Assembly: GCA_002479215.1 (NCBI GenBank)
Contig: DLME01000201.1
Location: 1 to 23,872 of the forward strand
Length of the DNA: 23,872 bases
From: Syntrophaceae bacterium UBA7544
Lineage (GTDB): Bacteria; Desulfobacterota; Syntrophia; Syntrophales; Smithellaceae
Direction of reading: 5' to 3'
Within the stretch, counting starts at the first letter, position 1; the number at the start of each line of letters is the position of its first letter. The position numbers and the translations under genes were made by a program. Below are positions 1 through 13,062 of this stretch, in pieces. The notes below the pieces were generated by a model. That model saw nothing but the letters and a program-made list of their open reading frames with translations. It did no database searches and was not told the DNA's origin.

Positions 1-564
1 GCAATCGCCATCCCGAATCATTCTTGCTCGGATACCGATGGCGTGGTTCCCGGAGGCGCAAGCGCCCTGCGGTGAAAAAATAGGACCGCTAAATTTTAAC
101 AGCATTCCGGCTTTACCGGAAGGAACATTTGCGCATAAATTAGGCAGCAGATAGGGGCTGACCCTCAGTGGCCCGCGATGTTCCAAATCGTGCATGGCCA
201 CGCGAAAGGCATCCGAACCGTTGAGTGCCGAACCGATAAGGCAAGCCATCCGTGGGGCAATCTTTTCATCAATGGTAATTCCTGAATTTTCGAGCGCCTC
301 CTTGCAGACCGCCATAGTTAAAATTACAAAAGAAGCATTCCAGTTATAAACTTCTTTAGCATCGGTGAAATCAAGCTCCAGTGGATACCAATCCGGAATT
401 TCTCCGACTATGTCGCAGGCCGACTCTACTTTACAACGCGTTACCTTCCTAAAACCGGCTTCACCCTTGATGGCCCTTTTCCATGTTTTCTCAAACGTGC
501 TTCCCAGCGGGGTGGCCGCGCCGTAACCGACAACATATACTTTTCTATTTTTAGGGGCTCTCAT
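1..564 (-). CDS. Beta-ketoacyl synthase, N-terminal part (runs off the window)
   Basis: This is the N-terminal 188 residues of a FabF/KAS-II-like condensing enzyme; the rest lies beyond position 1. The protein opens with a typical thiolase-fold strand (YVVGYGAATPLGSTF, residues 10-24) and reaches the nucleophile motif GACASG, with the active-site Cys near residue 169. The two downstream catalytic histidines are outside the window. In this family the enzyme extends an acyl chain by decarboxylative condensation with malonyl-ACP in the cytoplasm. It starts at an ATG 18 bases after the stop codon of the preceding ketosynthase, so the two are almost certainly co-transcribed. Because the Cys is present, this is not a chain-length-factor type subunit lacking the nucleophile, unless the later histidines are lost. 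The two ketosynthases are clearly divergent, so this is not a recent tandem duplication. Confidence 0.88.
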   Translation of the reverse strand, partial: MRAPKNRKVYVVGYGAATPLGSTFEKTWKRAIKGEAGFRKVTRCKVESACDIVGEIPDWYPLELDFTDAKEVYNWNASFVILTMAVCKEALENSGITIDEKIAPRMACLIGSALNGSDAFRVAMHDLEHRGPLRVSPYLLPNLCANVPSGKAGMLLKFSGPIFSPQGACASGNHAIGIRARMIRDGDC

Positions 565-582
565 AATTTCACTATATATTCT

Positions 583-1833
583 TTATGCTATTCTGTGCAA
601 GATCAAACAGGAATTGCAGCCACCGAACCCAAAAGCGTTTTTCAATGCAAATTCCTGTTTCAACTTTCTGGCTCCTTCGGCCACACAGTCAATTGTAATT
701 TCCGGATCGGGAATGTAATTTATCGTGGGAAGCAAAGTATCTTTTAGCATTCCTTCGATTGCCAAAATCGCTTCGATGGCGGAAGATGCGCCCATGGCGT
801 GCCCCAACTGCGATTTATTCGCCGACACAGGTGGCACTTTATTGCCAAAAATATTGGAGAGGGCATCAGCTTCTACTTTATCACCTACTTTTGTAGAAGT
901 GGCATGCGCGTTAATCGCATCTATATCATTGGGCCGTAATCCGGCATTGGCGATTGTCTCTTCAATGCATCTTTGCACGGTCTCCAGTTTGGGCGAAACA
1001 AAATGGCTCGCATCGGATGTCATTGACCAGCCGGCCATTTCTATTTTTGGTTTAAGCCCATGCGCTTTAGCAAATTCTTCAGTTGCCAAAATAATGCAAC
1101 CGGCGCCTTCGGAAACGACAAAACCTCTTCTATTGATGGAAAAAGGCCTGCTCGTTTTTTCCGGCGGTTCTTCCGGCTGTCCCTCTTTTGGGCGGTAAGC
1201 GCCGTTCATTGTGGCAAATCCGGCGACAATCGGTTCCACCAGAGGAAAATCAACGGCGCCGCCGATAACCACATCCGCCATGTCTCTTTGTAGCAGCATC
1301 TCGCCGATTATGAGCGAGGTAATTCCGGTTGCGCAAGCCGTAATGGTCGAACAGATTGGACCTGTTGCGTGGGTCAGGATAGAAACCTTACCTCCCACCA
1401 TATTAATACAGGAATTGGGATTGGTAAACGGGTGAGGCATCTTACCTTCCGCGACCATCAGGCGATCAGCTTGTAGTACCGCATCCAGACCGCCGACTGC
1501 CGTGCTGAACGTAACCGCCACTCGCGGTGCGATATCCGCTGAAATTACAATTCCGCTTTTTTCCAGAGCGCGATGCACAACCAGCAGGGCGTATTTAAAT
1601 ATCGGCGATGTCCAGTGCGCCATTTCCCGCGGCTGTAAAAAAGGATAGGGGCGTGAATCAATGTCCGCGACTTGACCGGCGACACGCACAGGAAAATCGG
1701 CGGTAAGCGGGAATCTGGTCAACTTTCCTATTCCAGAATCTCCAGCGACTGCACGTTGCCATTGAGTATCCAAATCCGTTCCTAAAGGAGAAACGGCATC
1801 ATAACCCAATATTAGAGTTTTTTTTGAACCCAT
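583..1833 (-). CDS. Beta-ketoacyl-ACP synthase (FabF/KAS II-like)
   Basis: A complete condensing enzyme of 416 residues, the normal FabF length. The whole Cys-His-His triad is visible: Cys167 in TACATG, His310 in NAHATSTKVGD and His345 in the NKSQLGHAMGASS motif, with Lys340 in the same motif. It should elongate an ACP-bound acyl chain using malonyl-ACP. The ATG at 1833 is preferred because the protein then begins MGSKKTLILGYDAVSPLG, like other family members. The frame stays open upstream to a GTG at 1872, inside a palindrome, which would add 13 poorly family-like residues. It is followed at once by a second ketosynthase and preceded, after a 303-base gap with a repeat, by two radical SAM genes. 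It clusters with two ACPs rather than with fabD/fabG/acpP, so it is probably a dedicated enzyme of a specialised pathway and not the housekeeping FabF. Confidence 0.9.
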   Translation of the reverse strand: MGSKKTLILGYDAVSPLGTDLDTQWQRAVAGDSGIGKLTRFPLTADFPVRVAGQVADIDSRPYPFLQPREMAHWTSPIFKYALLVVHRALEKSGIVISADIAPRVAVTFSTAVGGLDAVLQADRLMVAEGKMPHPFTNPNSCINMVGGKVSILTHATGPICSTITACATGITSLIIGEMLLQRDMADVVIGGAVDFPLVEPIVAGFATMNGAYRPKEGQPEEPPEKTSRPFSINRRGFVVSEGAGCIILATEEFAKAHGLKPKIEMAGWSMTSDASHFVSPKLETVQRCIEETIANAGLRPNDIDAINAHATSTKVGDKVEADALSNIFGNKVPPVSANKSQLGHAMGASSAIEAILAIEGMLKDTLLPTINYIPDPEITIDCVAEGARKLKQEFALKNAFGFGGCNSCLILHRIA

Positions 1834-1865
1834 AACTACATTCCTGATACCAAGTTGTATGTAAG

Positions 1866-1886
1866 TTACCACCTCGGAGGTGGTAA
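1866..1886. repeat. 21-bp perfect palindrome upstream of the ketosynthase gene
   Basis: The arms TTACCACCTC and GAGGTGGTAA are exact reverse complements around one central G. The site sits about 33 bases before the chosen ATG of the ketosynthase gene (minus strand). It could be an operator or a hairpin in the leader RNA. There is no downstream T-run to support a terminator. Confidence 0.6.
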
Positions 1887-1950
1887 TTACCGGTGATGTG
1901 AGATTTATTTACTATGCGCTCCCTTACGGGATGCGCCTCCGGTCATTGTC

Positions 1951-2038
1951 TATCTTTGTTGGCATCGTCGTCAGCTCCTCGACGTATGGTACTATACGAC
2001 TGCGTCGCCTCTTCCTTGCCGCCGCGGTATACTTTTGA
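1951..2038 (+). repeat. Dispersed ~88-bp repeat, copy 1
   Basis: First of three copies of a GC-rich repeat (others at 16109-16195 on the opposite strand and 20376-20463). All copies start with a CTTTGTTGGC-like block, have a central hairpin CGTAT-loop-ATACG (here with loop GGTACT) and end with a GCCGCCGCG-like block followed by TACTTT. This copy fills most of the gap between the ketosynthase and radical SAM genes. Confidence 0.82.
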
Positions 2039-2136
2039 CTGCGACTTGGTATAAAAAATCCTCTCCTGCGGGAAAGGGAAAGCCGAGGATGGAGGATGTT
2101 AATAACAAATGTGCCTATATCAAAGATTGTTGGGTA

Positions 2137-3132
2137 TTACCAAGGAATAAAACGGTACAGCTTGGCGAACATTTCATAAACTTCGATCCAGTTTTGTAAA
2201 TCTTTGGTTGAGCTCATGTGGTCCCGCTTGTTGACCATTATCCAACTCATATGCGCTGCTCCATCTTTGCAGGTGGAGCAATCGCGCGTTGCCGATGTGC
2301 AGCAGCGGTGAACTGTTTGTAAATCGGAAGCCCAGCGGAAAAAATGGATCAGACGGCGGGTTTGTGGTTTTCTGTTATCCAGAGATTCGGTAACGGACGG
2401 GCATTCTTTCCAGCCAAAGCGGCGTCCCATCATTTTCCCGGAGGTAATAACTTCGTGGTAGTATTTGCTGGAAATTACCGTTTGGGGGTATTTGTCCAGC
2501 ATTTCATCCATTTCACGGCGTAAATCTTTGAGTTCACCTTCGCGCCAGGAAAATCCGTCAACACCTTCATCATTCGAGAGAAGCTGGAGATGCACTTTTA
2601 AGCCGACATCCGCAATTCGTTTGATTACCGGCTCGACCTTTCCAAGCTGTTTTGGTGTTATGGTATAAAGATAGTAGGTGTAAGGGTCGCCGGCATAATT
2701 TTTACTGGAGATGGCAAATGTATCGCGTCCGCGGAGAACCTTTTCATCGGCACTGCCGCCCCACAGGGAAATCCCCACCATCATGTCGGGAAATTTATCA
2801 CGGGAAATTTTAATCAAGCCGTTAGTGGCGCAGTAGGCGGGCAGGCGTTTATAAAAAGCTTCGATGCGATCCATGCACAAAGTTGGCTCACCTCCGATCA
2901 GAATCGCCAGATTAACGCCGCGCTCTTTTTCTTTATCAATAAAATTTTCCCATTTCCGTATATCCATTTCCTCCGTCACTTCATGCTCACCGGAAGAAAA
3001 GAAGAAACACCCCTTGCAGCGCAAGTTGCAGCGGTTGGTTACATCATATATGGAACTGCGGATGTTAAGATTGGCAATCCGTTTGTAACGGGCTTGCCAA
3101 TCCTGATCCAGTAAGGAACTAACTGTTTTCAT
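2137..3132 (-). CDS. Radical SAM protein with C-terminal extra cysteine motif
   Basis: A 331-residue radical SAM enzyme. The [4Fe-4S]/SAM motif CNLRCKGC places cysteines at residues 35, 39 and 42, followed by a GGEPTL motif (SAM-binding GGE) near residues 100-105. Near the C-terminus is a second cysteine set, CC-x6-C-x2-C (CCTSATRDCSTC), which looks like ligands for an auxiliary iron-sulfur cluster. It is homologous along its length to the next gene upstream (3181-4263), which has the same two cysteine sets, so they are diverged tandem paralogues. Its place between ACP and ketosynthase genes suggests radical modification of an acyl chain or of a carrier-bound intermediate; that role is inference. 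The ATG at 3132 follows a purine-rich AAGGGCAG segment. The substrate cannot be read from sequence. Confidence 0.85.
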   Translation of the reverse strand: MKTVSSLLDQDWQARYKRIANLNIRSSIYDVTNRCNLRCKGCFFFSSGEHEVTEEMDIRKWENFIDKEKERGVNLAILIGGEPTLCMDRIEAFYKRLPAYCATNGLIKISRDKFPDMMVGISLWGGSADEKVLRGRDTFAISSKNYAGDPYTYYLYTITPKQLGKVEPVIKRIADVGLKVHLQLLSNDEGVDGFSWREGELKDLRREMDEMLDKYPQTVISSKYYHEVITSGKMMGRRFGWKECPSVTESLDNRKPQTRRLIHFFRWASDLQTVHRCCTSATRDCSTCKDGAAHMSWIMVNKRDHMSSTKDLQNWIEVYEMFAKLYRFIPW

Positions 3133-3180
3133 TAACTCTGCCCTTCTTCAGAAAGATAATATATAATACCCGGATTTTTT

Positions 3181-4263
3181 TTAATTTACAGCTACCTGTG
3201 GCGGCGCTACCTGCTCGGCGCAAAGATTTTCTCCTTTTTCATAGTCCATGACCCAGACCGCCAGATAAGTATCGACATAATCAAGCCAGGATTTAAATGA
3301 GGCCAGGTTGTTTACATGGCGGTAAAGGCGCGCTGTGACGACCGCGGAACCGGCGGCGTAATGACGGCAATCGACGCAATCCGTATCCGGCACACAACAG
3401 GCAACCGACCTGTCCCAGTTCAAGTCCGTTCTGTATTGCCGGAAAGATCTGCCCAGACCGATATCCTGCGAAGGATTCTGGCGGGGATATGAACAACTGT
3501 AAAGATCGTGCAAACCTTTTTTATGGGTGTGCGCCACGGCATTGTAAACGGAAAAAAGAATATTTTGCGGATATTTATTCAAAAGCGCTATCATCATTTG
3601 CTCTGTTCGTTGAAGAGATTCATCATCATGTCGCAGATGTCCTGTATAACCCACCGGAGAAGAAAAAACATTAAAGGTTAGTTTGCAACCGTTAGCAACG
3701 AGCTCGGAGGCGACATCATTTGCTTCATTGATATTTTCCCGCGTAAAGGTGTAAACGAAGACCGCGCGCGGATCATTTTTATAATTTTCAATCTGTTTTT
3801 TTAAAAGATTTTTCGCTTTTCTGATGCGCAGGCTGGTTTCGTCATTACCCCAAACGGAAATATGTAGTTTGTAGCCGACTGATTCCGGGATTTTTCTATA
3901 GCCATTGGTGGCAATACTGCCCAGCGGCATTTCCTGATAGCATACATCCAGCAACTCCGGCACTAAAGACGGTTCCGCTCCCGCCAGAACTACATAGGTA
4001 ATGCCGCGAGCTTTTTCGGCCTGCATTAGTTTACGCCATGCTTCCGCATCATTAATTTCCCGGGCAAACTGCTTATCCCCTTCAAAATAATAACAGCCGT
4101 CACAACGGATATTGCAGCGGTTAGACATGTCATAGGTTGATTCCCGCAGAAAAAAATATTTCCTGACTTTTTCCCAACGAGCCTTTACCTCCGGCTGGGC
4201 TAAAAGCTCGGAAAATTTCGGTTTGGCCGGTTCCAAAGAATCTTTATTGTTAATAGTAGTCAT
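3181..4263 (-). CDS. Radical SAM protein, paralogue of the adjacent gene
   Basis: A radical SAM enzyme of 360 residues counted from the ATG at 4263; an in-frame TTG two codons earlier is less likely. The cluster motif CNIRCDGC gives Cys50, Cys54 and Cys57, and a GAEPSL motif follows in the SAM-binding position. The C-terminal part carries CC-x5-C-x2-C (CCVPDTDCVDC), matching the layout of the paralogue at 2137-3132 and implying an auxiliary cluster. The pair also share the segments before the motif (xxYDxxNRCNxRC) and the TNG and SxWG segments after it. It lies 20 bases after an acyl carrier protein gene and 48 bases before the second paralogue, so one transcript is likely. Two co-expressed paralogues might act at successive positions of a chain or as a heterodimer; neither is shown. 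Confidence 0.85.
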   Translation of the reverse strand: MTTINNKDSLEPAKPKFSELLAQPEVKARWEKVRKYFFLRESTYDMSNRCNIRCDGCYYFEGDKQFAREINDAEAWRKLMQAEKARGITYVVLAGAEPSLVPELLDVCYQEMPLGSIATNGYRKIPESVGYKLHISVWGNDETSLRIRKAKNLLKKQIENYKNDPRAVFVYTFTRENINEANDVASELVANGCKLTFNVFSSPVGYTGHLRHDDESLQRTEQMMIALLNKYPQNILFSVYNAVAHTHKKGLHDLYSCSYPRQNPSQDIGLGRSFRQYRTDLNWDRSVACCVPDTDCVDCRHYAAGSAVVTARLYRHVNNLASFKSWLDYVDTYLAVWVMDYEKGENLCAEQVAPPQVAVN

Positions 4264-4283
4264 AGACAATTAATTTCTATCGA

Positions 4284-4556
4284 TTAACTTTTCGCGGTAA
4301 GTTTTTCTTTGATATAATCGGCTATGAGGCGAATAGTTTTTAATTTTGGATAATCGTCTTCATCAATCACAATTTTATACTCATCCTGCAGTACTAAGGC
4401 AATCGTGGCTAAATCCATACTATCAATGCCCAGTTCATCCACTAGGTCCATATCCGGATTGAATGTGTCGGCAGTAACATCTTCTAGCTTAAGTTCTCCA
4501 ATAATAACTTCGGCCACATGACGTATAATGCCTTTTATATCTCGACTTTCAGGCAT
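4284..4556 (-). CDS. Acyl carrier protein
   Basis: A 90-residue acidic protein with the phosphopantetheine attachment motif ELGIDSMDL; the modified serine is Ser46. The helical acidic pattern and length fit a stand-alone ACP. It starts with ATG behind a very strong ribosome binding site (GGAGAGGAGGA). It sits between a dehydratase-like gene and a radical SAM gene and is one of two different ACPs in the cluster (the other is at 7346-7618), so the pathway has its own carriers. It should tether growing acyl intermediates for the neighbouring ketosynthases in the cytoplasm. The two ACPs differ strongly outside the serine motif, which suggests different partners or pathway stages. Confidence 0.92.
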   Translation of the reverse strand: MPESRDIKGIIRHVAEVIIGELKLEDVTADTFNPDMDLVDELGIDSMDLATIALVLQDEYKIVIDEDDYPKLKTIRLIADYIKEKLTAKS

Positions 4557-4580
4557 CAGTATCCTCCTCTCCTTCTATGC

Positions 4581-4961
4581 TTATTTATCTTTTTTTATCT
4601 TCTGCGCAATTATTAAACCACTGCATACGATATTTTCGCTATTTGCTACTTTAAAAGAAAACAATGTTTCCTCGCCCAATTCTTCACCGGAGATGTTCAG
4701 CGATAAATTTTCTCCGGGTTTTACCGGTTGGGTAAATCTCACTCTTCTCAGTGCGGAAAGCTTAACTTGCTCGTTTCCTTTTTCGGTATGGCGGATAATT
4801 GCCTGTTCGGCCAGATGAATCAGAGCTATTCCCGGAAGAATCGGCTCACCAGGGAAATGTCCTACAAACCAGGGCGAATCAGTCGGCACATAAGCTAATG
4901 CTTCAATCTCATTTGGTTTATCGGATTTAACCTCCCTTAGCAAATTCCATCGACTTTTCAA
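4581..4961 (-). CDS. Hotdog-fold 3-hydroxyacyl-ACP dehydratase-like protein (FabZ/ApeI-like)
   Basis: A 126-residue single hotdog domain with the family signature WFVGHFPGEPILPG (residues 31-44), including the catalytic-type His35. FabZ has a catalytic Glu seven residues after the PG, in IIEAMAQ. Aligning by eye, this protein reads GIALIHLAEQ there, so the Glu is replaced by His49 and the nearest acid is Glu52. It may therefore be a dehydratase with a shifted acid, a thioesterase-like variant, or a non-catalytic partner. The start is a TTG at 4961, supported by GAGGA seven bases upstream; no suitable ATG lies nearby. It is 24 bases upstream of the ACP gene, consistent with co-transcription. 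Membership of the fold is firm; activity is uncertain. Confidence 0.8.
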   Translation of the reverse strand: MKSRWNLLREVKSDKPNEIEALAYVPTDSPWFVGHFPGEPILPGIALIHLAEQAIIRHTEKGNEQVKLSALRRVRFTQPVKPGENLSLNISGEELGEETLFSFKVANSENIVCSGLIIAQKIKKDK

Positions 4962-5073
4962 GAGAATATTCCTCGTTTACTACCGTGCAAAATTTAATTT
5001 ATTTTGAGCAACGCTTCTTTATATCATTAATTATTTTTTAATCAAAATTTTTTATAAAATCAATGATTAATTT

Positions 5074-5108
5074 ACCCCGTTAGAAAGTAGAAGACTTTCT
5101 AACGGGGT
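5074..5108. terminator. Perfect 15-bp stem hairpin, probable (bidirectional?) terminator
   Basis: ACCCCGTTAGAAAGT (5074-5088) and ACTTTCTAACGGGGT (5094-5108) pair perfectly around the loop AGAAG. It lies in the 168-base gap between the deacetylase gene and the dehydratase-like gene, both on the minus strand. The plus-strand side is followed by TTACTTTTT, while the minus-strand side is followed by an AT-rich but not T-rich sequence. It could end the 8072-5130 transcript, or be an attenuator or processing site within a longer operon. Confidence 0.65.
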
Positions 5109-5129
5109 TTACTTTTTGGGAAAAGATTT

Positions 5130-5942
5130 TTATAAATTTTTATTTTCCATTATCATCACTTCTTTGTTTATTAAAACGGAAAGCGGCACAACTCTAAAAC
5201 CCCTGGAAATAATTCCGGCCAAAAGAATTTCTATCTCCGATAAAAAAATAATATCGTCTTCCTTGCTTCGCGTCGGTACGTCGTGAAGCAAGATAATGTC
5301 ATCGGCTTTTACTTTTTTCAGTATTTTTTGGCTGACGTTTTTTATAAAAAAATTGCCGGCATCAAAGGCGCGACAGCTGAATGTTAGGCAATACATCCCC
5401 AGTTTGTCGAGAATTGAAGGAAGCTTGGGATTAACTATACCTACCGGCGGCCGGAAAGCCAGCGTTTTTATCCCCATATTGCGCAAAACTTCTTGAGCCG
5501 TGTATATTTCCTGATAAAGAGTATCATAACCTCTAAACATCAAAAATGGATTATGGTTATACGAGTGGTTGCCGATAGAATGACCACGGGCAATTATATC
5601 ATTAATGATATCAGAGTGGTGAAGAGCATTGACGCCGGAGACAAAAAAAGTCGCCTTCATTGAATACTTATCAAGCAGATCAAGAATTTGTGTCGTCATC
5701 GGTTTTGAAGGACCATCATCAAAAGTGAGCGCAACCATATTTTTTTGCGTACTGCCGCGGCTGATCACAGGCAGAAAAAAGTTGGTTAGTGGGAAAAAAG
5801 AAGCAAAAACGCACAGAAGAATGTAAAAAAAAGCGACGGCGGCCGCCATCAAGGGGCTGACAAAATAAACTAACGCGGCGACAGCCAAAAGAATTATTCC
5901 TGAAGCTTCGGCCGGATTCAAGAACGGCAATCTCTTTTTCAT
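5130..5942 (-). CDS. Membrane-anchored polysaccharide deacetylase (NodB domain)
   Basis: A 270-residue protein with two hydrophobic N-terminal segments (about residues 12-50) followed by a NodB-homology carbohydrate esterase 4 domain. Visible motifs are TFDDGPS (catalytic base and metal Asp), GNHSYNH (metal histidines), FRPPVG and LLHD. The family hydrolyses N- or O-acyl groups from amino sugars using a divalent metal, usually at or outside the cytoplasmic membrane. Its ATG overlaps the stop of the B12-type radical SAM gene (sequence TAATG, one shared base), so translation is probably coupled. An in-frame GTG six codons upstream is possible but would overlap further. In an acyl-chain cluster it may trim a lipid-linked sugar or hydrolyse an acyl amide; this is inference. 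Confidence 0.86.
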   Translation of the reverse strand: MKKRLPFLNPAEASGIILLAVAALVYFVSPLMAAAVAFFYILLCVFASFFPLTNFFLPVISRGSTQKNMVALTFDDGPSKPMTTQILDLLDKYSMKATFFVSGVNALHHSDIINDIIARGHSIGNHSYNHNPFLMFRGYDTLYQEIYTAQEVLRNMGIKTLAFRPPVGIVNPKLPSILDKLGMYCLTFSCRAFDAGNFFIKNVSQKILKKVKADDIILLHDVPTRSKEDDIIFLSEIEILLAGIISRGFRVVPLSVLINKEVMIMENKNL

Positions 5943-7291
5943 TAAATCAGGTGCTCCCACAAAGGTCCTGTTAACCCCCGTTCATAGAGTTTGGGCAAAA
6001 CATGGGTCGCCTTGGCTTCACCGGCGTCGACGAGCCAATTCAAACGACCGTCGGCATGAGTTTTCACCGTTTGCATAATTTCCCGGCCGGATATGTGTGA
6101 TGATCTATAAAATACAGGTTGCAGGAGACTTTGAGAGGCTGTGATTTGACCTTCCTTCAAAGCGAGATCATACAACGCGGTATGAGGGTAAATGCGGATG
6201 CCGCAAAAAAAGAAAAAGACCGATTTTTCCAGCTTATCCATTCCCTTTAATGTTTTTTGCAGGGTCTGATAGTTTTCACCCGGACCGCCCAGAAGGAAAT
6301 AATGGGCAACGTGCAGGTCAGCCTTCCGGGCTTGACTATGAGCGGTAAATACATCAGCGGCGACAAAAGGTTTGCCCAAATTGATGAGCATTAAATCGGA
6401 CAAAGATTCTGTCCCAAATTCCACATGAGTCAAGCCGGCATCCGCCAGACGCTTATAATAATCGGCTGGAGGAGCGGTGGGAGCAAAAAAACCTCCCCAG
6501 GGTATGGATACGCGGGCATCAATAAAAGCCTGCGCTACTTGTCTGCTGTGATCGTGACTGGCATTAAAAGCCGAATCAGTAATAAAAATGTACTTGGCGC
6601 CGGCATCCTGCAATTCGCGCGCTTTTTGGGCTATTTCCTGCGGTGGGAAAAATCGCATCCGGCTGCCTTCGATGTGCGGATAAGTGCAGTAGCTGCAGCG
6701 AAAAGGGCACCCCCTTTTTGTTTGCAGGTTGAGCATTCCACCGTAGGATAAATAAAATTTTGTATGCGAACTTGCCGGATTAAAACTTCTATTGATTGGA
6801 CTATCCCACGGTTCGTAAGTAATGACGGAGGTTTCTTTAGTCACAATGCCGGGAATTGATTTTACGTCAGCATTTTTTTGCAGTGCTTCCAAAAGCAAGG
6901 GCAACCTTTCGCCCTCGCCGGCAATGCCGTAATCGGCATCCAGTGCGTGCAGAAATTCAACCGGAAAAACGGTGAAACCACTGCCTCCTAAAATCAACAA
7001 GGCTCGCGAATTTTTTCTGATCCGGCGCACCAAATTTTGATATTCTGCAAGAAAGCCGCGGCTGTTTATTGTATCCAGGTTATCTATATTTCTGATTGAT
7101 ACTCCGACAAAATCTGGTAAAAACTCTCGAATTACCATCCCTAATTCTTCCAGATCATTAAATTCATTTAAATCAACAATTTTGGTTTGATAACGTGAAT
7201 CCAATGAACCGGCGACATAATCGAGCCCCAGGGGATAAACAGGATACGGAACTCTCAGAGTGTTTGCCGAGATTAGCAATACTTTCATCAT
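5942..7291 (-). CDS. B12-binding-type radical SAM protein
   Basis: About 449 residues with an N-terminal Rossmann-like cobalamin-binding-type domain (start MKVLLISANTLRVPYPVYPLG, residues 2-22; LLILGGSGFTVFP near 98-110) and a central radical SAM core with TKRGCPFRCSYC, Cys195, Cys199 and Cys202. This architecture is typical of enzymes that methylate or rearrange unactivated carbons, or form C-C bonds. No classic DxHxxG cobalamin His motif is evident, as in many members of this class. The start is the ATG pair at 7291/7288; an upstream TTG at 7306 is less likely. It is translationally coupled to the deacetylase gene through a TAATG overlap. Together with the two other radical SAM genes it gives the cluster three radical enzymes. 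Confidence 0.86.
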   Translation of the reverse strand: MMKVLLISANTLRVPYPVYPLGLDYVAGSLDSRYQTKIVDLNEFNDLEELGMVIREFLPDFVGVSIRNIDNLDTINSRGFLAEYQNLVRRIRKNSRALLILGGSGFTVFPVEFLHALDADYGIAGEGERLPLLLEALQKNADVKSIPGIVTKETSVITYEPWDSPINRSFNPASSHTKFYLSYGGMLNLQTKRGCPFRCSYCTYPHIEGSRMRFFPPQEIAQKARELQDAGAKYIFITDSAFNASHDHSRQVAQAFIDARVSIPWGGFFAPTAPPADYYKRLADAGLTHVEFGTESLSDLMLINLGKPFVAADVFTAHSQARKADLHVAHYFLLGGPGENYQTLQKTLKGMDKLEKSVFFFFCGIRIYPHTALYDLALKEGQITASQSLLQPVFYRSSHISGREIMQTVKTHADGRLNWLVDAGEAKATHVLPKLYERGLTGPLWEHLI

Positions 7292-7345
7292 AGAGGCAAA
7301 ATGCAAAAAGCGCTATAAGGTTATTATCTTTGCGTAAGCGAAAGC

Positions 7346-7618
7346 TTAGGCCTTTTGACGCTGATTCGCTAAAATGTGCGTGGCCAATGCACGCACCGAT
7401 GCAAAAACCTTGGAGCCAAGTTCTTTGCTCTCGATTTTGACGCCATAGATTTTTTCAATCATCATCACTAACTCCAGCACATCAATGGAATCAATTCCCG
7501 TATCGCCGCCCACAAGCGGAGCATCATCTTTGATATCTTCCGGTCTAACATCCATCAGTCCCAGAGTTTGAATGATCTTCACTTTTAATTCAGCTATCAA
7601 TTCATTAAGTTGACTCAT
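7346..7618 (-). CDS. Acyl carrier protein
   Basis: A 90-residue ACP with the attachment motif GDTGIDSIDVLEL; Ser44 would carry phosphopantetheine. The ATG at 7618 is chosen over an in-frame TTG four codons earlier because GAGGTG sits five bases upstream of it. The protein is more like polyketide or aryl-polyene carriers in having a GG pair before the motif (LVGGDTGIDS), a soft resemblance only. It is 54 bases ahead of the B12-type radical SAM gene and is the second carrier in the cluster. The carrier may hold the substrate of that radical enzyme or feed the ketosynthases further downstream. Confidence 0.92.
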   Translation of the reverse strand: MSQLNELIAELKVKIIQTLGLMDVRPEDIKDDAPLVGGDTGIDSIDVLELVMMIEKIYGVKIESKELGSKVFASVRALATHILANQRQKA

Positions 7619-7706
7619 TGAACACCTCAAAATTTTAATCTGGCACTCGCCAGCGCATTTTAGTCTTTTATCTTTATGCTTCCAAATTATTCGTATTTAA
7701 AGAAGC

Positions 7707-8072
7707 TTATGTTTTCGCCTCATCCCCGAGAATTTTTTCCAGAATAACCCGCGCAGCCCAGCGGCTTAAAGCCCTTCCATATTCAGGTCCCGCTAAATAC
7801 ACGCCCACCAAAAAAATCAGCCAGGAAATACCATAAAGCAGCGGAGCAGCAATAGCGGCTATTAGGGCATTGCCCCGTGATGCAACAATTATACTCAGAA
7901 CAATTGCTACCGGCAGACCGATAGCATAACTGAAGGCAAGCAAAACCAGACCGATAATTACTCGAAAAGAAGGTTTCTTTTTAAAGATGCTGAGGTTCGC
8001 ATGCTCAGCAATTGCTTTCCGGCAGAAATCTTTCCGGGCAATATACAATGCTATTTTTTTTACGATACTCAA
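7707..8072 (-). CDS. Small membrane protein, unknown function
   Basis: A 121-residue protein I do not recognise. It begins with a basic amphipathic stretch (residues 1-34), has two hydrophobic segments (about residues 36-61 and 66-93, the second rich in Ile, Leu and Ala) and ends in a charged tail. The start appears to be a TTG at 8072, with GGGGA about six bases before it; no ATG gives a better protein. It is the first gene of the minus-strand cluster, 88 bases before an ACP gene. A membrane anchor or export helper for the cluster product is possible, but nothing in the sequence shows it. Confidence 0.65.
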   Translation of the reverse strand: MSIVKKIALYIARKDFCRKAIAEHANLSIFKKKPSFRVIIGLVLLAFSYAIGLPVAIVLSIIVASRGNALIAAIAAPLLYGISWLIFLVGVYLAGPEYGRALSRWAARVILEKILGDEAKT

Positions 8073-8442: not shown

Positions 8443-9132
8443 ATGAACAGAGCAGCACTCCACAAAATTAGTTACGGCATTTATATAGTGACTTCCGGAC
8501 AGGATGGAAAATTCAACGGCCAGATAGCTAATTCCATGTTTCAGGTCACAGCAAATCCGGCGACAATTGCCATCAGCATCAATAAAGAAAATTACACGCA
8601 CGAATTAATCAGACTCAGCCGTAAATTTGCCGTTTCGATTCTGGCCGAAGCGGCGCCGATGACTTTTATCGGTCTTTTCGGTTTAAAAAGCGGGCGAGAT
8701 GTAAACAAACTGCAAAACACGAAAACAAAGACAGGTGTGACAAAAGTACCGATTGTTCTGGAAAACGCCATCAGCTATATTGAAGCTGAGCTGGAAAGCG
8801 AATTGGATTGCGGCACGCATACAATATTTGTCGGCCGTGTTGTTGATGCGGATGTTATCAGCAACGAAGAACCCTTGACTTATGCCTACTATCAAAAAGT
8901 TAAAGGTGGTAAATCATCCAAAAACGCGCCGACCTATGTGAAAGAAGAGACGGCAGCGCCGTCGATCTCAGCAGCAGCGCGTTATGTATGCAGTGTTTGC
9001 GGTTATGTTTACGATCCGGCCAAAGGCGACCCTGGTGGTGGCATTACTCCCGGAACGAAGTTTGAAGATATACCGGATTCCTGGGTTTGTCCGGTTTGTG
9101 GTGCGGATAAATCTAAATTTGAAAAAAAATAA
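8443..9132 (+). CDS. hrb: Flavin reductase-rubredoxin fusion (high-molecular-weight rubredoxin type)
   Basis: A 229-residue two-domain protein. Residues 1 to about 155 are a flavin reductase-like FMN-binding domain ([33 protein letters not shown]). A linker rich in Lys, Thr, Ala and Pro leads to a C-terminal rubredoxin, residues 181-229, with both iron-binding knuckles: CSVCGY (Cys183, Cys186) and CPVCGA (Cys216, Cys219). This arrangement matches the Hrb protein known from acetogens such as Moorella, which passes electrons from NADH to a flavodiiron oxygen or NO reductase. No flavodiiron gene is in this window. The ATG follows AAAGAGGAAAAA, a good ribosome binding site. The gene stands alone, diverging from the lipid-like cluster. 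It supports an anaerobic lifestyle with oxidative stress defence. Confidence 0.88.
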
Positions 9133-9793: not shown

Positions 9794-10634
9794 ATGATTA
9801 TTCGCTGCTGGGGTGCCAGAGGTTCCATACCAGTTTCGGGAAGGCAATACTTGCGCCACGGCGGGAACACCACTTGTCTGGAAATCAGGACAAAAGACGA
9901 CGAAATTCTTATCGTTGATGCCGGTTCAGGTATTCGTGAACTAGGTAATTTTCTCCTGGCGAAGGACAGACACACTTTTACGCTTTTATTAACTCACGCC
10001 CATTGGGATCACATCATGGGCTTCCCTTTTTTTAAGCCTATATATTCACATAAAACAAATTTGACCGTTTGGGGTTGCCCCTTTGCCCAAACCTCCTTAA
10101 AGGAAATGTTGTCTCGCACCATGGCGCCGCCAAATTTTCCGGTCAATTTCGACGCTATTCGTGCGAACATATCCTATCAAGACATGTGCATTGATTCCTA
10201 CAAATTAGGGTCGATGACTATAACTCCTATTGCGCTGAGTCACCCCAATCAGGGTATGGGTTATGAGTTCGCCGAAGACGGTAAACGTTTCGTTTTTCTA
10301 ACCGACAATGAATTGGGTCATCAGCATGAGGGGGGGGCTTAATTATCAGGCCTATCTGGATTTCTCGTGCGGGGCCGACTTGCTTATCCATGATGCCGAA
10401 TTTACTGCAGAAGAATATAAGCATACCCGCGGCTGGGGACATTCGCTTTATACAGATGCTCTGCATCTGGCTCTCGATGCCGGCGTAAAAAAGTTCGGTT
10501 TATTTCACCACAATCAGGAAAGATTCGATAACGGAATTGATACGATAGTCGTTGATTGCCGCAAGATAATTAGCCAAAGTAAAAAAGATCTCGAATGTTT
10601 TGCCGTTTCACAGTCAATGGAATTGACGCTTTAA
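9794..10634 (+). pseudogene. Metallo-beta-lactamase-fold hydrolase, frameshifted at a G-run
   Basis: The first frame (9794-10342) begins MIIRCWGARGSIPV and includes the zinc motif THAHWDHIMG and GGNTTCLEI, as in metal-dependent hydrolases of the MBL fold. It breaks at a run of eight G (10330-10337) into GGA and a stop. The next frame continues without loss as GGLNYQAYLDFSCGADLLIHDAEF, then RGWGHS and GLFHHNQ, up to a stop at 10634. Removing a single G restores one protein of about 279 residues with the full set of metal ligands (HxHxDH, an Asp in LLIHDAEF, and a late His). The start has a strong ribosome binding site, GAAGGGGGG. This is either a sequencing or assembly error in the homopolymer, a phase-variable switch, or a real recent mutation. 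The substrate is unknown. Confidence 0.82.
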
Positions 10635-10658
10635 TTTTCCGGTTACTGCGCTTATGAT

Positions 10659-11216
10659 ATGAAGACAAAAGTTACAGAAAACATTAATGAGGAAATCACG
10701 CTGGGCGGGGGCTGCTTTTGGTGTTTGGATGCTGTCTATAGAGAAATCAGAGAGGTGGAAAAGGTTCTTTCCGGCTATTCCGGAGGTTCAGTTGCTAATC
10801 CGACTTATGAAGAAGTGTGCACGGGATCGACAGGGCACGCAGAAGTTGTGCAAATAACCTTCAATCCCCGAATCATAACTGCGGAAAAGCTGCTCCAAAT
10901 ATTTTTCGTCATTCATGACCCAACGACATTAAACCGCCAGGGAGCCGATGTCGGCACTCAATACCGTTCGATTATTTTCTACCGTAATCAAAAACAAAAA
11001 GATGTTATCGATAAAGTCATCGGAGAACAAAAAAAAGACAAGGTTTACAAAAATCCAATTGTAACCGAAGTAGTTCCCTTTCAATCTTTTTATGCCGCTG
11101 AAGACTATCATCAGGATTATTACAGTCAAAATAGAGAGCAGAGTTATTGTCAGGTTATCATTAATCCTAAATTGGAGAAATTTAAAAAAACCTTCCGCGA
11201 TAATTTAAAGAAATAA
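10659..11216 (+). CDS. msrA: Peptide methionine sulfoxide reductase MsrA
   Basis: A 185-residue protein with the MsrA signature GGGCFWCLDAVYREI near residue 17, where the first Cys of GCFWC is the catalytic nucleophile. Conserved segments VLSGYSGG, YEEVCTGSTGHAEVVQI, FFVIHDPT and GADVGTQYRSIIFY follow, all typical of the family. It reduces methionine-S-sulfoxide in proteins using thioredoxin or an equivalent donor in the cytoplasm. Length is normal for a stand-alone MsrA without a fused MsrB domain. The start ATG has only a weak ribosome binding site. It lies 24 bases after the frameshifted hydrolase and 40 bases before ygiQ on the same strand, so the three may be co-transcribed. Confidence 0.95.
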   Translation: MKTKVTENINEEITLGGGCFWCLDAVYREIREVEKVLSGYSGGSVANPTYEEVCTGSTGHAEVVQITFNPRIITAEKLLQIFFVIHDPTTLNRQGADVGTQYRSIIFYRNQKQKDVIDKVIGEQKKDKVYKNPIVTEVVPFQSFYAAEDYHQDYYSQNREQSYCQVIINPKLEKFKKTFRDNLKK

Positions 11217-11256
11217 TCATTCTTATTAAAGCCTGATTTCTTTTACGGTCAAAAAT

Positions 11257-13062
11257 ATGTTTCTGCCTACAACCAGCGCTGAATTAAGAAAATTAAAATG
11301 GGATAAACTCGACATAATTCTTGTCACCGGCGATGCCTATATTGACAGCCCCTATATAGGAGTTGCTGTTATTGGCCGGATTCTGTCGCATGCCGGGTAT
11401 CGCGTAGGAATCATCGCCCAGCCGGATATTCATAGCGATCATGATATCTGCCGTCTGGGAGAGCCGGTGCTATTCTGGGGAATCACCGGCGGCTGCATGG
11501 ATTCAATGGTCGCCAACTACACTGCCACCAAGAAAAAAAGGCTTGCCGATGATTTGACCGCCGGAGGGGAAAATAATCGCCGTCCGGACCGCGCCGTTGT
11601 CGTGTATGCCAATCTGATTAGACAATATTTTAAAAATACCAAACCGCTGGTTTTGGGCGGTGTCGAGGCTAGCCTGCGCCGTGTTGTCCATTATGATTAC
11701 TGGTCGGATGCCATTCGCCGCTCGATTTTATTTGATGCCCGCGCCGATATTCTTGTTTATGGCATGGCCGAAAAGGCCATACTGGAACTGGCGCAAAAAC
11801 TGACGAGAGGAGAAGACACAAAAAATATCCGTGGCACTTGCTATATTGATTCCACTCCTGTGCCCGGATACATTGAATTACCATCTTATGAAAAGGTTGT
11901 AGCCGACAAAAAAGCTTTCATCCAAATGTTCGATACATTTTACCGCAATAATGATCCTTTAACTGCGCGCGGCTTGTTTCAGCAGCACGGTTCTCGCTAT
12001 CTGATCCACAATCCGCCTCAACCTCACCTGACAGTTGAGGAATTGGATCAAATCTATGCTCTTGCTTTCACGCGGGATGTCCACCCCTATTACAGTGTAC
12101 AGGGAAAAGTCAAGGCAATGGATACGATTAAGTTCTCGCTGACAGCACATCGCGGCTGCTATGGCGAATGCAATTTTTGTTCAATCGGCCTGCATGAAGG
12201 AAGAACAGTAATCAGCCGCAGCGAGCAATCGATAATTAATGAAGCGCGCCAAATTGCCGCCCGGCCTGATTTCAGAGGCTATATTCTGGATGTAGGCGGA
12301 TCAACGGCAAATATGTACGGGATCGACTGCCCGCGCAAAAAAAGTCGGGGAGCCTGTGCAGATAAAAGATGTCTTTACCCGCAGGTCTGTGTGTCTCTGA
12401 AGCCGGATCACAACCGTCAGCTCAACTTGCTTGCGAGCTTGCGCAAGATCAAAGGCGTAAAAAAAGTATTTGTTGCCTCCGGCATTCGTTACGATTTACT
12501 GGAGGCCGATAAAAAACACTGTGCAGGTTACGTGCAAGAGCTCGTTTGTCACCATATCTCCGGCCAGTTAAAAGTAGCGCCCGAACATACTGTTTCCAGT
12601 GTCCTAAAAATTATGGGCAAACCTCAAGCTCAGTCACTTATAAATTTCCAGCAGCTTTTTGAAAAAATTGATCACGGGTATGAACCACAAAGCAAACTGC
12701 GGGGTACCATACCCACCGCTGCGCGGGATTGTTCAACTAAGCAATTCCCGCGCACTTCGTTACGGAAATTGCAGTTTTACAACAAAGCTTCGGGACGCCA
12801 ACAATTTCTCACATACTATTTTATTGCCGCCCATCCAGGATGCACCGAAGAAGATATGCATACGCTCAAATCTTTTGCCACCAGAGAGCTGAAAATTAAT
12901 CCGCAGCAGGTGCAAATATTTACGCCGCTCCCTTCCACTTATTCCAGCCTGATGTATTGGACGGAAGTTGATCCCGCAACCGGCAGGAAAATATTTGTGG
13001 AAAAAAATACCGCGAAAAAACAGAGGCAGAAAGATATTGTTGTCGGGCGAGCGAGCAAGTAA
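11257..13062 (+). CDS. ygiQ: YgiQ-family radical SAM protein
   Basis: A 601-residue protein of the YgiQ family. The N-terminal domain (YgiQ_N-like, residues 1 to about 280) contains the usual DIILVTGDAYIDSPY and LGGVEASLRR segments. The radical SAM motif is HRGCYGECNFCS near residues 297-308, followed by family segments such as ILDVGGSTANMYG and LKVAPEHTVSSVLKIMGKP. These proteins bind a [4Fe-4S] cluster and SAM, but the reaction is not established. Length fits the shorter bacterial members, which lack the longer C-terminal tail. Start ATG at 11257; its ribosome binding site is weak. The gene ends about 70 bases before the first attC site of the cassette array. Confidence 0.93.
   Translation: MFLPTTSAELRKLKWDKLDIILVTGDAYIDSPYIGVAVIGRILSHAGYRVGIIAQPDIHSDHDICRLGEPVLFWGITGGCMDSMVANYTATKKKRLADDLTAGGENNRRPDRAVVVYANLIRQYFKNTKPLVLGGVEASLRRVVHYDYWSDAIRRSILFDARADILVYGMAEKAILELAQKLTRGEDTKNIRGTCYIDSTPVPGYIELPSYEKVVADKKAFIQMFDTFYRNNDPLTARGLFQQHGSRYLIHNPPQPHLTVEELDQIYALAFTRDVHPYYSVQGKVKAMDTIKFSLTAHRGCYGECNFCSIGLHEGRTVISRSEQSIINEARQIAARPDFRGYILDVGGSTANMYGIDCPRKKSRGACADKRCLYPQVCVSLKPDHNRQLNLLASLRKIKGVKKVFVASGIRYDLLEADKKHCAGYVQELVCHHISGQLKVAPEHTVSSVLKIMGKPQAQSLINFQQLFEKIDHGYEPQSKLRGTIPTAARDCSTKQFPRTSLRKLQFYNKASGRQQFLTYYFIAAHPGCTEEDMHTLKSFATRELKINPQQVQIFTPLPSTYSSLMYWTEVDPATGRKIFVEKNTAKKQRQKDIVVGRASK

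Follow-up and report, generated by a model that had tools for sequence, protein, structure and literature searches.

The question raised by contig DLME01000201.1 of Syntrophaceae bacterium UBA7544 (assembly GCA_002479215.1) was what is made by a single-strand run of acyl-chain genes that also encodes three radical S-adenosylmethionine (SAM) proteins. The window, i.e. the whole analysed stretch of 23,872 nucleotides, was the entire contig C74 of the genome under study (G000; 3.0 Mb, 305 contigs, 93.8% complete); G, L and C numbers denote genomes, stretches of genomes and contigs of G000, respectively. It was concluded that the run, at positions 1-8072, was a real, conserved and non-housekeeping cluster, and its sequences placed it in a predicted three-locus pathway of the aryl polyene (APE) type with a conserved radical-SAM arm. 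The window probably contains this arm, belonging to a pathway of aryl-polyene type that makes a membrane lipid anaerobically and is encoded at three G000 loci (C54, C195 and C74/C158); in it, the paired radical SAM proteins rSAM_A and rSAM_B would edit a chain bound to the acyl carrier protein ACP2.

The distribution of two genes was compared in a survey of 395 Desulfobacterota genomes. The rSAM_A protein (threshold E<=1e-60) was found in 28 genomes of 11 families. The ApeR-type ketosynthase (KS) of locus C195 scored above 600 bits in 27 of these 28 genomes and in none of the 367 genomes lacking rSAM_A, the next best match being 337 bits (Fisher 6e-41, the genomes being non-independent). The exception was G122, with a ketosynthase 41% identical.

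Organisation of the gene run

All parts of positions 1-8072 ran in open frames on a single strand with family matches. The genes were transcribed in the order TM, ACP1, B12rSAM, PDA, DH, ACP2, rSAM_A, rSAM_B, KS1 and KS2:

7707..8072, − strand: TM, small hydrophobic protein (121 aa) that opens the run; no Pfam family
7346..7630, − strand: ACP1, acyl carrier protein (ACP), ApeE-like; PF00550, NF006617 71.1 bits (cut-off 70)
5942..7306, − strand: B12rSAM, B12-type radical SAM protein TIGR04072 (rSAM_ladder_B12), 390.5 bits (cut-off 360); PF02310 and PF04055
5130..5960, − strand: PDA, polysaccharide deacetylase of NodB type, N-terminus hydrophobic; PF01522 104.4 bits
4581..4961, − strand: DH, hotdog protein, FabZ/ApeI-like; PF07977 37.4 bits and PF22818 (ApeI-like) 34.8 bits, both above cut-off
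4284..4556, − strand: ACP2, acyl carrier protein adjoining the radical SAM pair; PF00550
3181..4269, − strand: rSAM_A, radical SAM protein with CxxxCxxC; Pfam radical SAM 25.8 bits, below the cut-off of 29.5
2137..3132, − strand: rSAM_B, radical SAM paralogue of rSAM_A; PF04055 above cut-off
583..1872, − strand: KS1, ketosynthase with Cys-His-His motifs; PF00109 and PF02801
1..564, − strand: KS2, first 188 aa only, truncated at the contig end, the remainder lying on C158

Frames and family matches agreed with the initial annotation, which had described two ketosynthases, two ACPs, a hotdog protein, a radical SAM pair, a B12-type radical SAM protein and a deacetylase on one strand. The start codon of KS1 was uncertain, the aligned family starting ~14 residues in.

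The cluster was split by the contig edge. C158 and the window overlapped by 15 identical bases, the last of C158 and the first of the window, and the KS2 reading frame continued across them. In a relative, KS2 residues 1-188 matched C74 and residues 184-421 matched C158, at 95-96% identity. Besides the rest of KS2, three further genes of the cluster lay on C158:

L101:12230-12946 (C158), − strand: KS2 remainder
C158 (L101) 11749-12228: thioesterase, YbgC/FadM-type; TIGR00051 79.0 vs 68.7 bits
C158 (L101) 10910-11770: dehydratase of polyketide synthase (PKS) type; PF14765 23.5 vs 23.7 bits (35.4 in L039)
C158 (L101) 10097-10696: PlsY-like acyltransferase, last gene; TIGR00023 108.0 vs 137.2 bits

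The consensus of 37 PDA sequences contained the motifs TFDDGP, HSxxH and RPPVG, which we take to serve metal binding and catalysis. In an alignment to E. coli FabZ, the catalytic His was kept in 29 of 30 DH sequences, and Glu, which is catalytic in FabZ, stood at the second catalytic position in 1 of 30. The hotdog family match of the initial annotation stood, but the dehydratase label became doubtful because so few sequences had this Glu. No riboswitch or other RNA family was found at gathering score in the window, and no repeats were found in the two intergenic stretches that were searched.

Ketosynthases

KS1 and KS2 both kept Cys-His-His, and KS1 was 42% identical to the KS2 of a close relative. 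Among known types both were nearest to FabF, as would be expected if these were routine fatty-acid synthesis genes that happened to lie beside radical SAM genes. The probability of such an origin was considered negligible, since both proteins scored under the fabF model cut-off of 493.75 bits (KS1 326.8 bits; KS2 of the relative L035 384.0 bits) and formed a 100/100 clade of their own, which FabF adjoined, apart from E. coli FabF and from the FabF that G000 has on C53. The neighbourhood was also conserved in two phyla. The divergence of both ketosynthases from housekeeping FabF, as initially annotated, was thereby confirmed. In the same tree, which omitted two long-branch rows of an earlier tree and did not include ApeC, ApeR grouped with the C195 ketosynthase and the KS40 rows in one 100/100 clade.

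Conservation and distribution

The same-family set consisted of 22 stretches, namely the window and 21 fetched ones; the C158 genes were uncounted for the window. TM, ACP1, B12rSAM and PDA were present in all 22, DH, ACP2, rSAM_A and rSAM_B in 21 (L046 was cut), KS1 in 18, KS2 in 17, the thioesterase and the PKS-type dehydratase in 15 each and PlsY in 11. The misses lay mostly at stretch ends. TIGR04072 was recorded at E<=1e-70 in 21 of 24 same-family genomes.

Across the phylum, the 28 rSAM_A stretches (those cut at their ends included) held rSAM_B and KS1 in every case, followed by ACP2 and DH (27 each), KS2 (26), the thioesterase and the PKS-type dehydratase (24 each), B12rSAM (22), ACP1 (20), TM (17), PDA (13), a KS-KS fusion (12) and PlsY (6). 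The usual core was a set of seven genes: ACP2-rSAM_A-rSAM_B-KS1-KS2-thioesterase-dehydratase. A second survey covered 178 genomes of Spirochaetota, the phylum of a Spirochaetes metagenome-assembled genome (MAG; L081 = G422). The rSAM_A protein was found in 9 of them, 69-75% identical to that of G000, together with rSAM_B (9), KS1 and ACP2 (8 each), KS2 (6), the thioesterase and the PKS-type dehydratase (5 each). The view that this was a dedicated acyl-chain system was upheld by the synteny kept across Desulfobacterota.

Individual stretches showed peculiarities of their own. An extra radical SAM gene was seen between PDA and DH in L048:6442-7983 (G019; DUF4070 type) and in L036 at 6831 (G007). 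A Peptidase_U32-family gene occupied the B12rSAM position in L210:7620-8798 (G332), a genome without a TIGR04072 match at E<=1e-95. KS1 and rSAM_B of L038 (G003) were each matched in two pieces and may be frameshifted in the MAG, and ~5 kb of foreign sequence with a large open reading frame (ORF) separated KS1 from KS2 in L214:11006-17291 (G404).

Two further loci of the genome

It had initially been stated that no ketoreductase or acyltransferase was nearby and that the pathway must borrow them. The first part stood for the portion in view, which the family search for them had covered. The need to borrow did not, as candidates were found at C195 and C54 and the ApeR-type ketosynthase of C195 was co-inherited with rSAM_A. 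G000 had further ketosynthases beyond KS1 and KS2, and the two loci contained the following genes:

C195: ApeH-like ligase, dehydratase-like protein, ketoreductase, LolA, 229-aa protein, phytoene-desaturase-like oxidoreductase, ACP, ApeR-type KS, acyltransferase (PF01553)
C54, part 1: two KSs, AMP-ligase, 409-aa B12-type radical SAM protein, aromatic ammonia-lyase, thioesterase, DAK/DegV protein, glycosyltransferase GT2
C54, part 2: MMPL-methyltransferase, LpxL-like acyltransferase, ABC transporter, ACP, KS pair

The C195 ketoreductase scored 297 bits with NF004200 (vs 273 bits) and LolA scored 60.1 bits with PF03548. The KS pair of C54 (C54b) was 29% identical to the 727-aa KS-KS fusion of relatives. 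A loss of the ketosynthase/chain-length factor pair (KS-CLF) and of the desaturase in this family was considered and rejected, candidates being present at C54 and C195.

The rSAM_A gene and the C195-type KS lay within 25 kb of each other in only 9 of 27 genomes; the KS was on a separate contig or hundreds of kb away in G000, G019, G053 and G168. Such distances, along with a core that has its own ketosynthases, ACP, dehydratase and release enzyme, could be explained by a free-standing lipid pathway that was merely co-inherited with an aryl polyene cluster. This explanation was considered very unlikely, because the co-occurrence extended over 11 families and the gene sets were interleaved elsewhere. 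Window-type, C195-type and C54-type genes shared one contig in G077 and G304, and the best matches of eight C195 proteins stood in a row beside the core in G085. Further, 5 of 8 additional Spirochaetota stretches had the ketoreductase, dehydratase and LolA arranged head to head with the operon ACP1-KS-CLF-B12rSAM-PDA-DH-ACP2-rSAM_A-rSAM_B.

An aromatic ammonia-lyase scoring above 570 bits was found in 12 of the 28 rSAM_A genomes vs 1 of the 367 others, and in G077, G114, G122 and G170 it was no more than 16 kb away from rSAM_A. No match to the ammonia-lyase was obtained in the Spirochaetes genome G422, and that of C54 passed no curated model cut-off.

The content of the three loci was then set against the APE genes of E. 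coli CFT073, listed as apeA-R, ApeB included, in Table 1 of PMC8253772. Seventeen CFT073 proteins (all except ApeA; L239) were compared with chosen G000 loci at E<0.01, and 13 were matched: ApeR, Q, P, O, M, L, K, J, I, H, F, E and D. The best match of ApeR was the C195 KS (297.3 bits), which is in trans to the window. ApeQ matched the C195 ketoreductase (211.7 bits), ApeF the C195 ACP (31.9 bits), and ApeP (39.4 bits) and ApeL (14.7 bits, E 1e-4) were also matched at C195. Within the window, ACP1 was the best match of ApeE among the examined loci (50.1 bits) and DH was the sole match of ApeI there (30.8 bits). The families of ApeQ, ApeP and ApeI are generic ones. ApeO matched the C54 KSa (169.3 bits) and the C54b KS (98.6 bits), and ApeM matched C54 (63.3 bits). 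A ligase, acyltransferases and a thioesterase were present, as indicated by ApeH (94.2 bits), ApeD (53.4 bits), ApeJ (118.7 and 37.0 bits) and ApeK (58.0 bits).

Radical SAM proteins

The CxxxCxxC motif was formed by C52, C56 and C59 in rSAM_A and by C35, C39 and C42 in rSAM_B. Further invariant cysteines were C259, C291, C292, C298 and C301 in the former and C244, C277, C278, C285 and C288 in the latter. The two proteins were 27% identical, and the mean column identity of rSAM_B was 87% (20 sequences). Despite the invariant C-terminal cysteines, the family search gave no SPASM auxiliary-cluster domain in either protein up to E 10. Only distant relatives were returned from the solved structures, and the mechanism was not readable from them. 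SkfB (31.4 bits) and the tetraether synthase 7tol (E 0.021) were such relatives of rSAM_A; B12rSAM matched a tryptophan C2-methyltransferase with 100.6 bits. No paper on the radical SAM core was noticed in the open-licence PMC literature, which does not prove that none exists; the available portions of PMC9821293 and PMC12758564 contained nothing bearing on rSAM_A or rSAM_B.

Proposed pathway

We propose that the KS-CLF pair, the ketoreductase and the dehydratases would build a polyene from an aryl or other starter on ApeE/F-type carriers, and that the same chain, or a second chain, would be elongated on ACP2 by KS1 and KS2. The 5'-deoxyadenosyl radical of rSAM_A and rSAM_B would alter the carbon skeleton by a new C-C bond, desaturation or cyclisation, and the B12-type enzymes would probably methylate; we infer that the radical enzymes act at unactivated carbons. 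The PKS-type dehydratase and the thioesterase would finish and release the chain, and the acyltransferases would load it onto a glycerol or sugar lipid, an N-acetyl sugar of which may be deacetylated by PDA. LolA and the exporter would then move the lipid outward.

The paired paralogues (KS1/KS2, rSAM_A/rSAM_B and the two ACPs) suggest two successive or two parallel chains. It is possible, though distinctly less probable than the proposed arm, that ACP2, KS1, KS2 and rSAM_A/B make a separate second acyl chain, to be combined with the aryl polyene into a single lipid by PlsY and the remaining acyltransferases. The arm has its own ACP, two complete FabF-type ketosynthases, its own thioesterase and dehydratase, and a PlsY-like gene as the last one. 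A FabA-like gene passing NF003509 (192.5 vs 124 bits) was also located upstream in 16 of the 22 same-family stretches, though not in the window itself, the rest of G000 not having been searched for FabA. However, PlsY was present in only 6 of the 28 Desulfobacterota stretches (some of them cut), FabA in 0 of 18 stretches outside the family, and KS-CLF with the ApeE-type ACP1 shared an operon with the radical SAM core in most other lineages.

A more far-reaching proposal, rather unlikely at present, is that rSAM_A/B with ACP2 and KS1/KS2 rebuild an anaerobic polyene by radical polycyclisation, possibly ladderane-like, or by chain-to-chain coupling. Sulfate reducers, syntrophs and spirochaetes, as a widespread set of carriers, would then have membrane lipids of a previously unseen class, in which the aryl polyenes are cyclised or cross-linked.

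Several observations weighed against the radical-SAM arm of an APE-type pathway. At E<0.01, ApeG, ApeN, ApeC and ApeB were unmatched among the examined loci; ApeC is a 240-aa annotated gene, ApeB is a methyltransferase, and the C54 MMPL protein carries a different fused methyltransferase domain. Several of the 13 matches were to generic families (KS, ketoreductase, ACP, dehydratase) that any fatty-acid synthesis system could give, the match of ApeL was weak, and the Ape proteins were compared with the chosen contigs only. The relatedness of the genomes makes the Fisher values too strong. An aryl starter is not general, because 16 of the 28 rSAM_A genomes lacked a close ammonia-lyase. The core itself varied: G514 lacked KS2 and G464 the thioesterase and the PKS-type dehydratase, both stretches continuing, while ACP2 was missing from G122 and DH from G114. 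Within the family, L054 lacked KS1 and the genes after it, though 5.4 kb remained. The action of rSAM_A/B on an ACP-bound chain is a reading of gene position.

The work provided a defined gene set, its distribution in two phyla and a candidate substrate (ACP2), by which the question of the radical chemistry becomes directly testable in growable carriers.

Neighbouring genes

One gene outside the run adjoined it divergently:

8443..9132, + strand: flavin reductase-rubredoxin protein, neighbour only; rubredoxin model NF045768 91.6 bits (cut-off 90)

It adjoined the cluster in 20 of the 22 same-family stretches and in 1 of 18 other stretches examined. The protein is a possible redox partner of the cluster. 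Farther along the window, overlapping frames at 9794-10342 and 10308-10634 (+), known from the ORF list only, perhaps encode one frameshifted protein, presumably of metallo-beta-lactamase fold. A 601-aa radical SAM protein with a weak PF04055 match, which we take to be YgiQ-like, was encoded outside the cluster at 11257-13062 (+). Contig C89 (L028, L029), likewise outside the cluster, gave seven radical SAM matches on 27.5 kb, five of them B12-binding-like.

Comparison with known systems

The initial annotation had noted that genome-mining rules class similar gene sets as ladderane-type or aryl-polyene-like. In a ladderane-type pathway, which has been put forward for anammox bacteria, a polyunsaturated chain would be closed into concatenated cyclobutanes by the radical enzymes. 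According to the accessible part of PMC2649909 (Rattray et al. 2009), Kuenenia stuttgartiensis has type II fatty-acid synthesis (FASII) clusters with radical SAM genes, the B12-type Kuste2803, the deacetylase-like Kuste3351 and phytoene-desaturase-like genes. This parts list resembled that of G000 in the TIGR04072 protein, which scored above its cut-off, an adjacent radical SAM pair (kuste3342/3343 there), extra FabF and ACP copies, the deacetylase-like protein and phytoene-desaturase-like genes. In contrast to K. stuttgartiensis, no phenylacetyl-CoA ligase was found beside the G000 pair, and the desaturase-like gene was at another locus (C195). The likeness of rSAM_A/B to kuste3342/3343 was one of published description and arrangement rather than of compared sequences, and the G000 group is not anammox. 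PMC2649909 also states that the ladderane candidates are syntenic with Desulfotalea, in which its authors detected no ladderanes, only acyclic polyunsaturated hydrocarbons. The portions available of PMC4790861 and PMC9902471 give, respectively, a ladderane candidate gene list whose expression in E. coli produced no ladderanes, and clusters labelled 'ladderane' in Desulfobacterota and other phyla, their function outside anammox being described as unknown.

The ladderane label was based mainly on TIGR04072, which was not always present beside rSAM_A: it was absent from 6 of the 28 rSAM_A stretches (some cut). In the phylum survey, 84 of 395 genomes passed the TIGR04072 cut-off and 99 had a match at E<=1e-95, comprising 24 of the 28 rSAM_A carriers and 75 of the 367 other genomes. 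The scores fell into a high group at 480-700 bits and a lower group at 320-440 bits, with differing gene neighbourhoods; the 'ladderane' family name therefore spans more than one cluster type. The 20 best-scoring fetched stretches (L137-L156) contained no rSAM_A/B, and their genomes lacked rSAM_A at E<=1e-60. These APE-like clusters (e.g. G355, G265, G229) shared TIGR04072 (425-698 bits) with G000, several also an MMPL protein, a glycosyltransferase, an ACP and a KS pair, and L137, L139, L142 and L148 a 409-423 aa B12-type radical SAM protein at 58-62%. They differed in the missing rSAM_A and in an ApeR-type KS that, where listed, was only 37-42% identical. TIGR04072 was most typical of clusters without rSAM_A/B. 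A ladderane-type pathway was considered very unlikely and retained solely as a rival reading; the aryl-polyene lead was kept for the whole pathway. Two things were separated under the 'ladderane' label of genome mining: a broad cluster that resembles APE clusters and carries TIGR04072, and the narrower seven-gene core, which has two further radical SAM enzymes and is co-inherited with the ApeR-type KS.

The flexirubin cluster, compared by NCBIfam names only, was approached by the C195 ketoreductase, which came near FlxB (308.6 vs 340 bits), and by the C54 aromatic ammonia-lyase; in contrast to that cluster, the G000 ammonia-lyase lay below every curated cut-off. Over its three loci, G000 shared with the E. 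coli APE system two ACP types, an ApeR-type KS, a ketoreductase, ApeI- and ApeP-like hotdog proteins, an acyl-ACP ligase, a thioesterase, a glycosyltransferase, a lysophospholipid-type acyltransferase, and matches to an RND/MMPL exporter and LolA. The genes of E. coli stand in one locus, whereas those of G000 were in three, G077 and G304 having them on one contig. Beyond the E. coli set, G000 had rSAM_A/B, two B12-type radical SAM proteins, KS1/KS2, ACP2, the PKS-type dehydratase, the deacetylase and a desaturase-like oxidoreductase, to which 12 of the 28 rSAM_A genomes add the aromatic ammonia-lyase.

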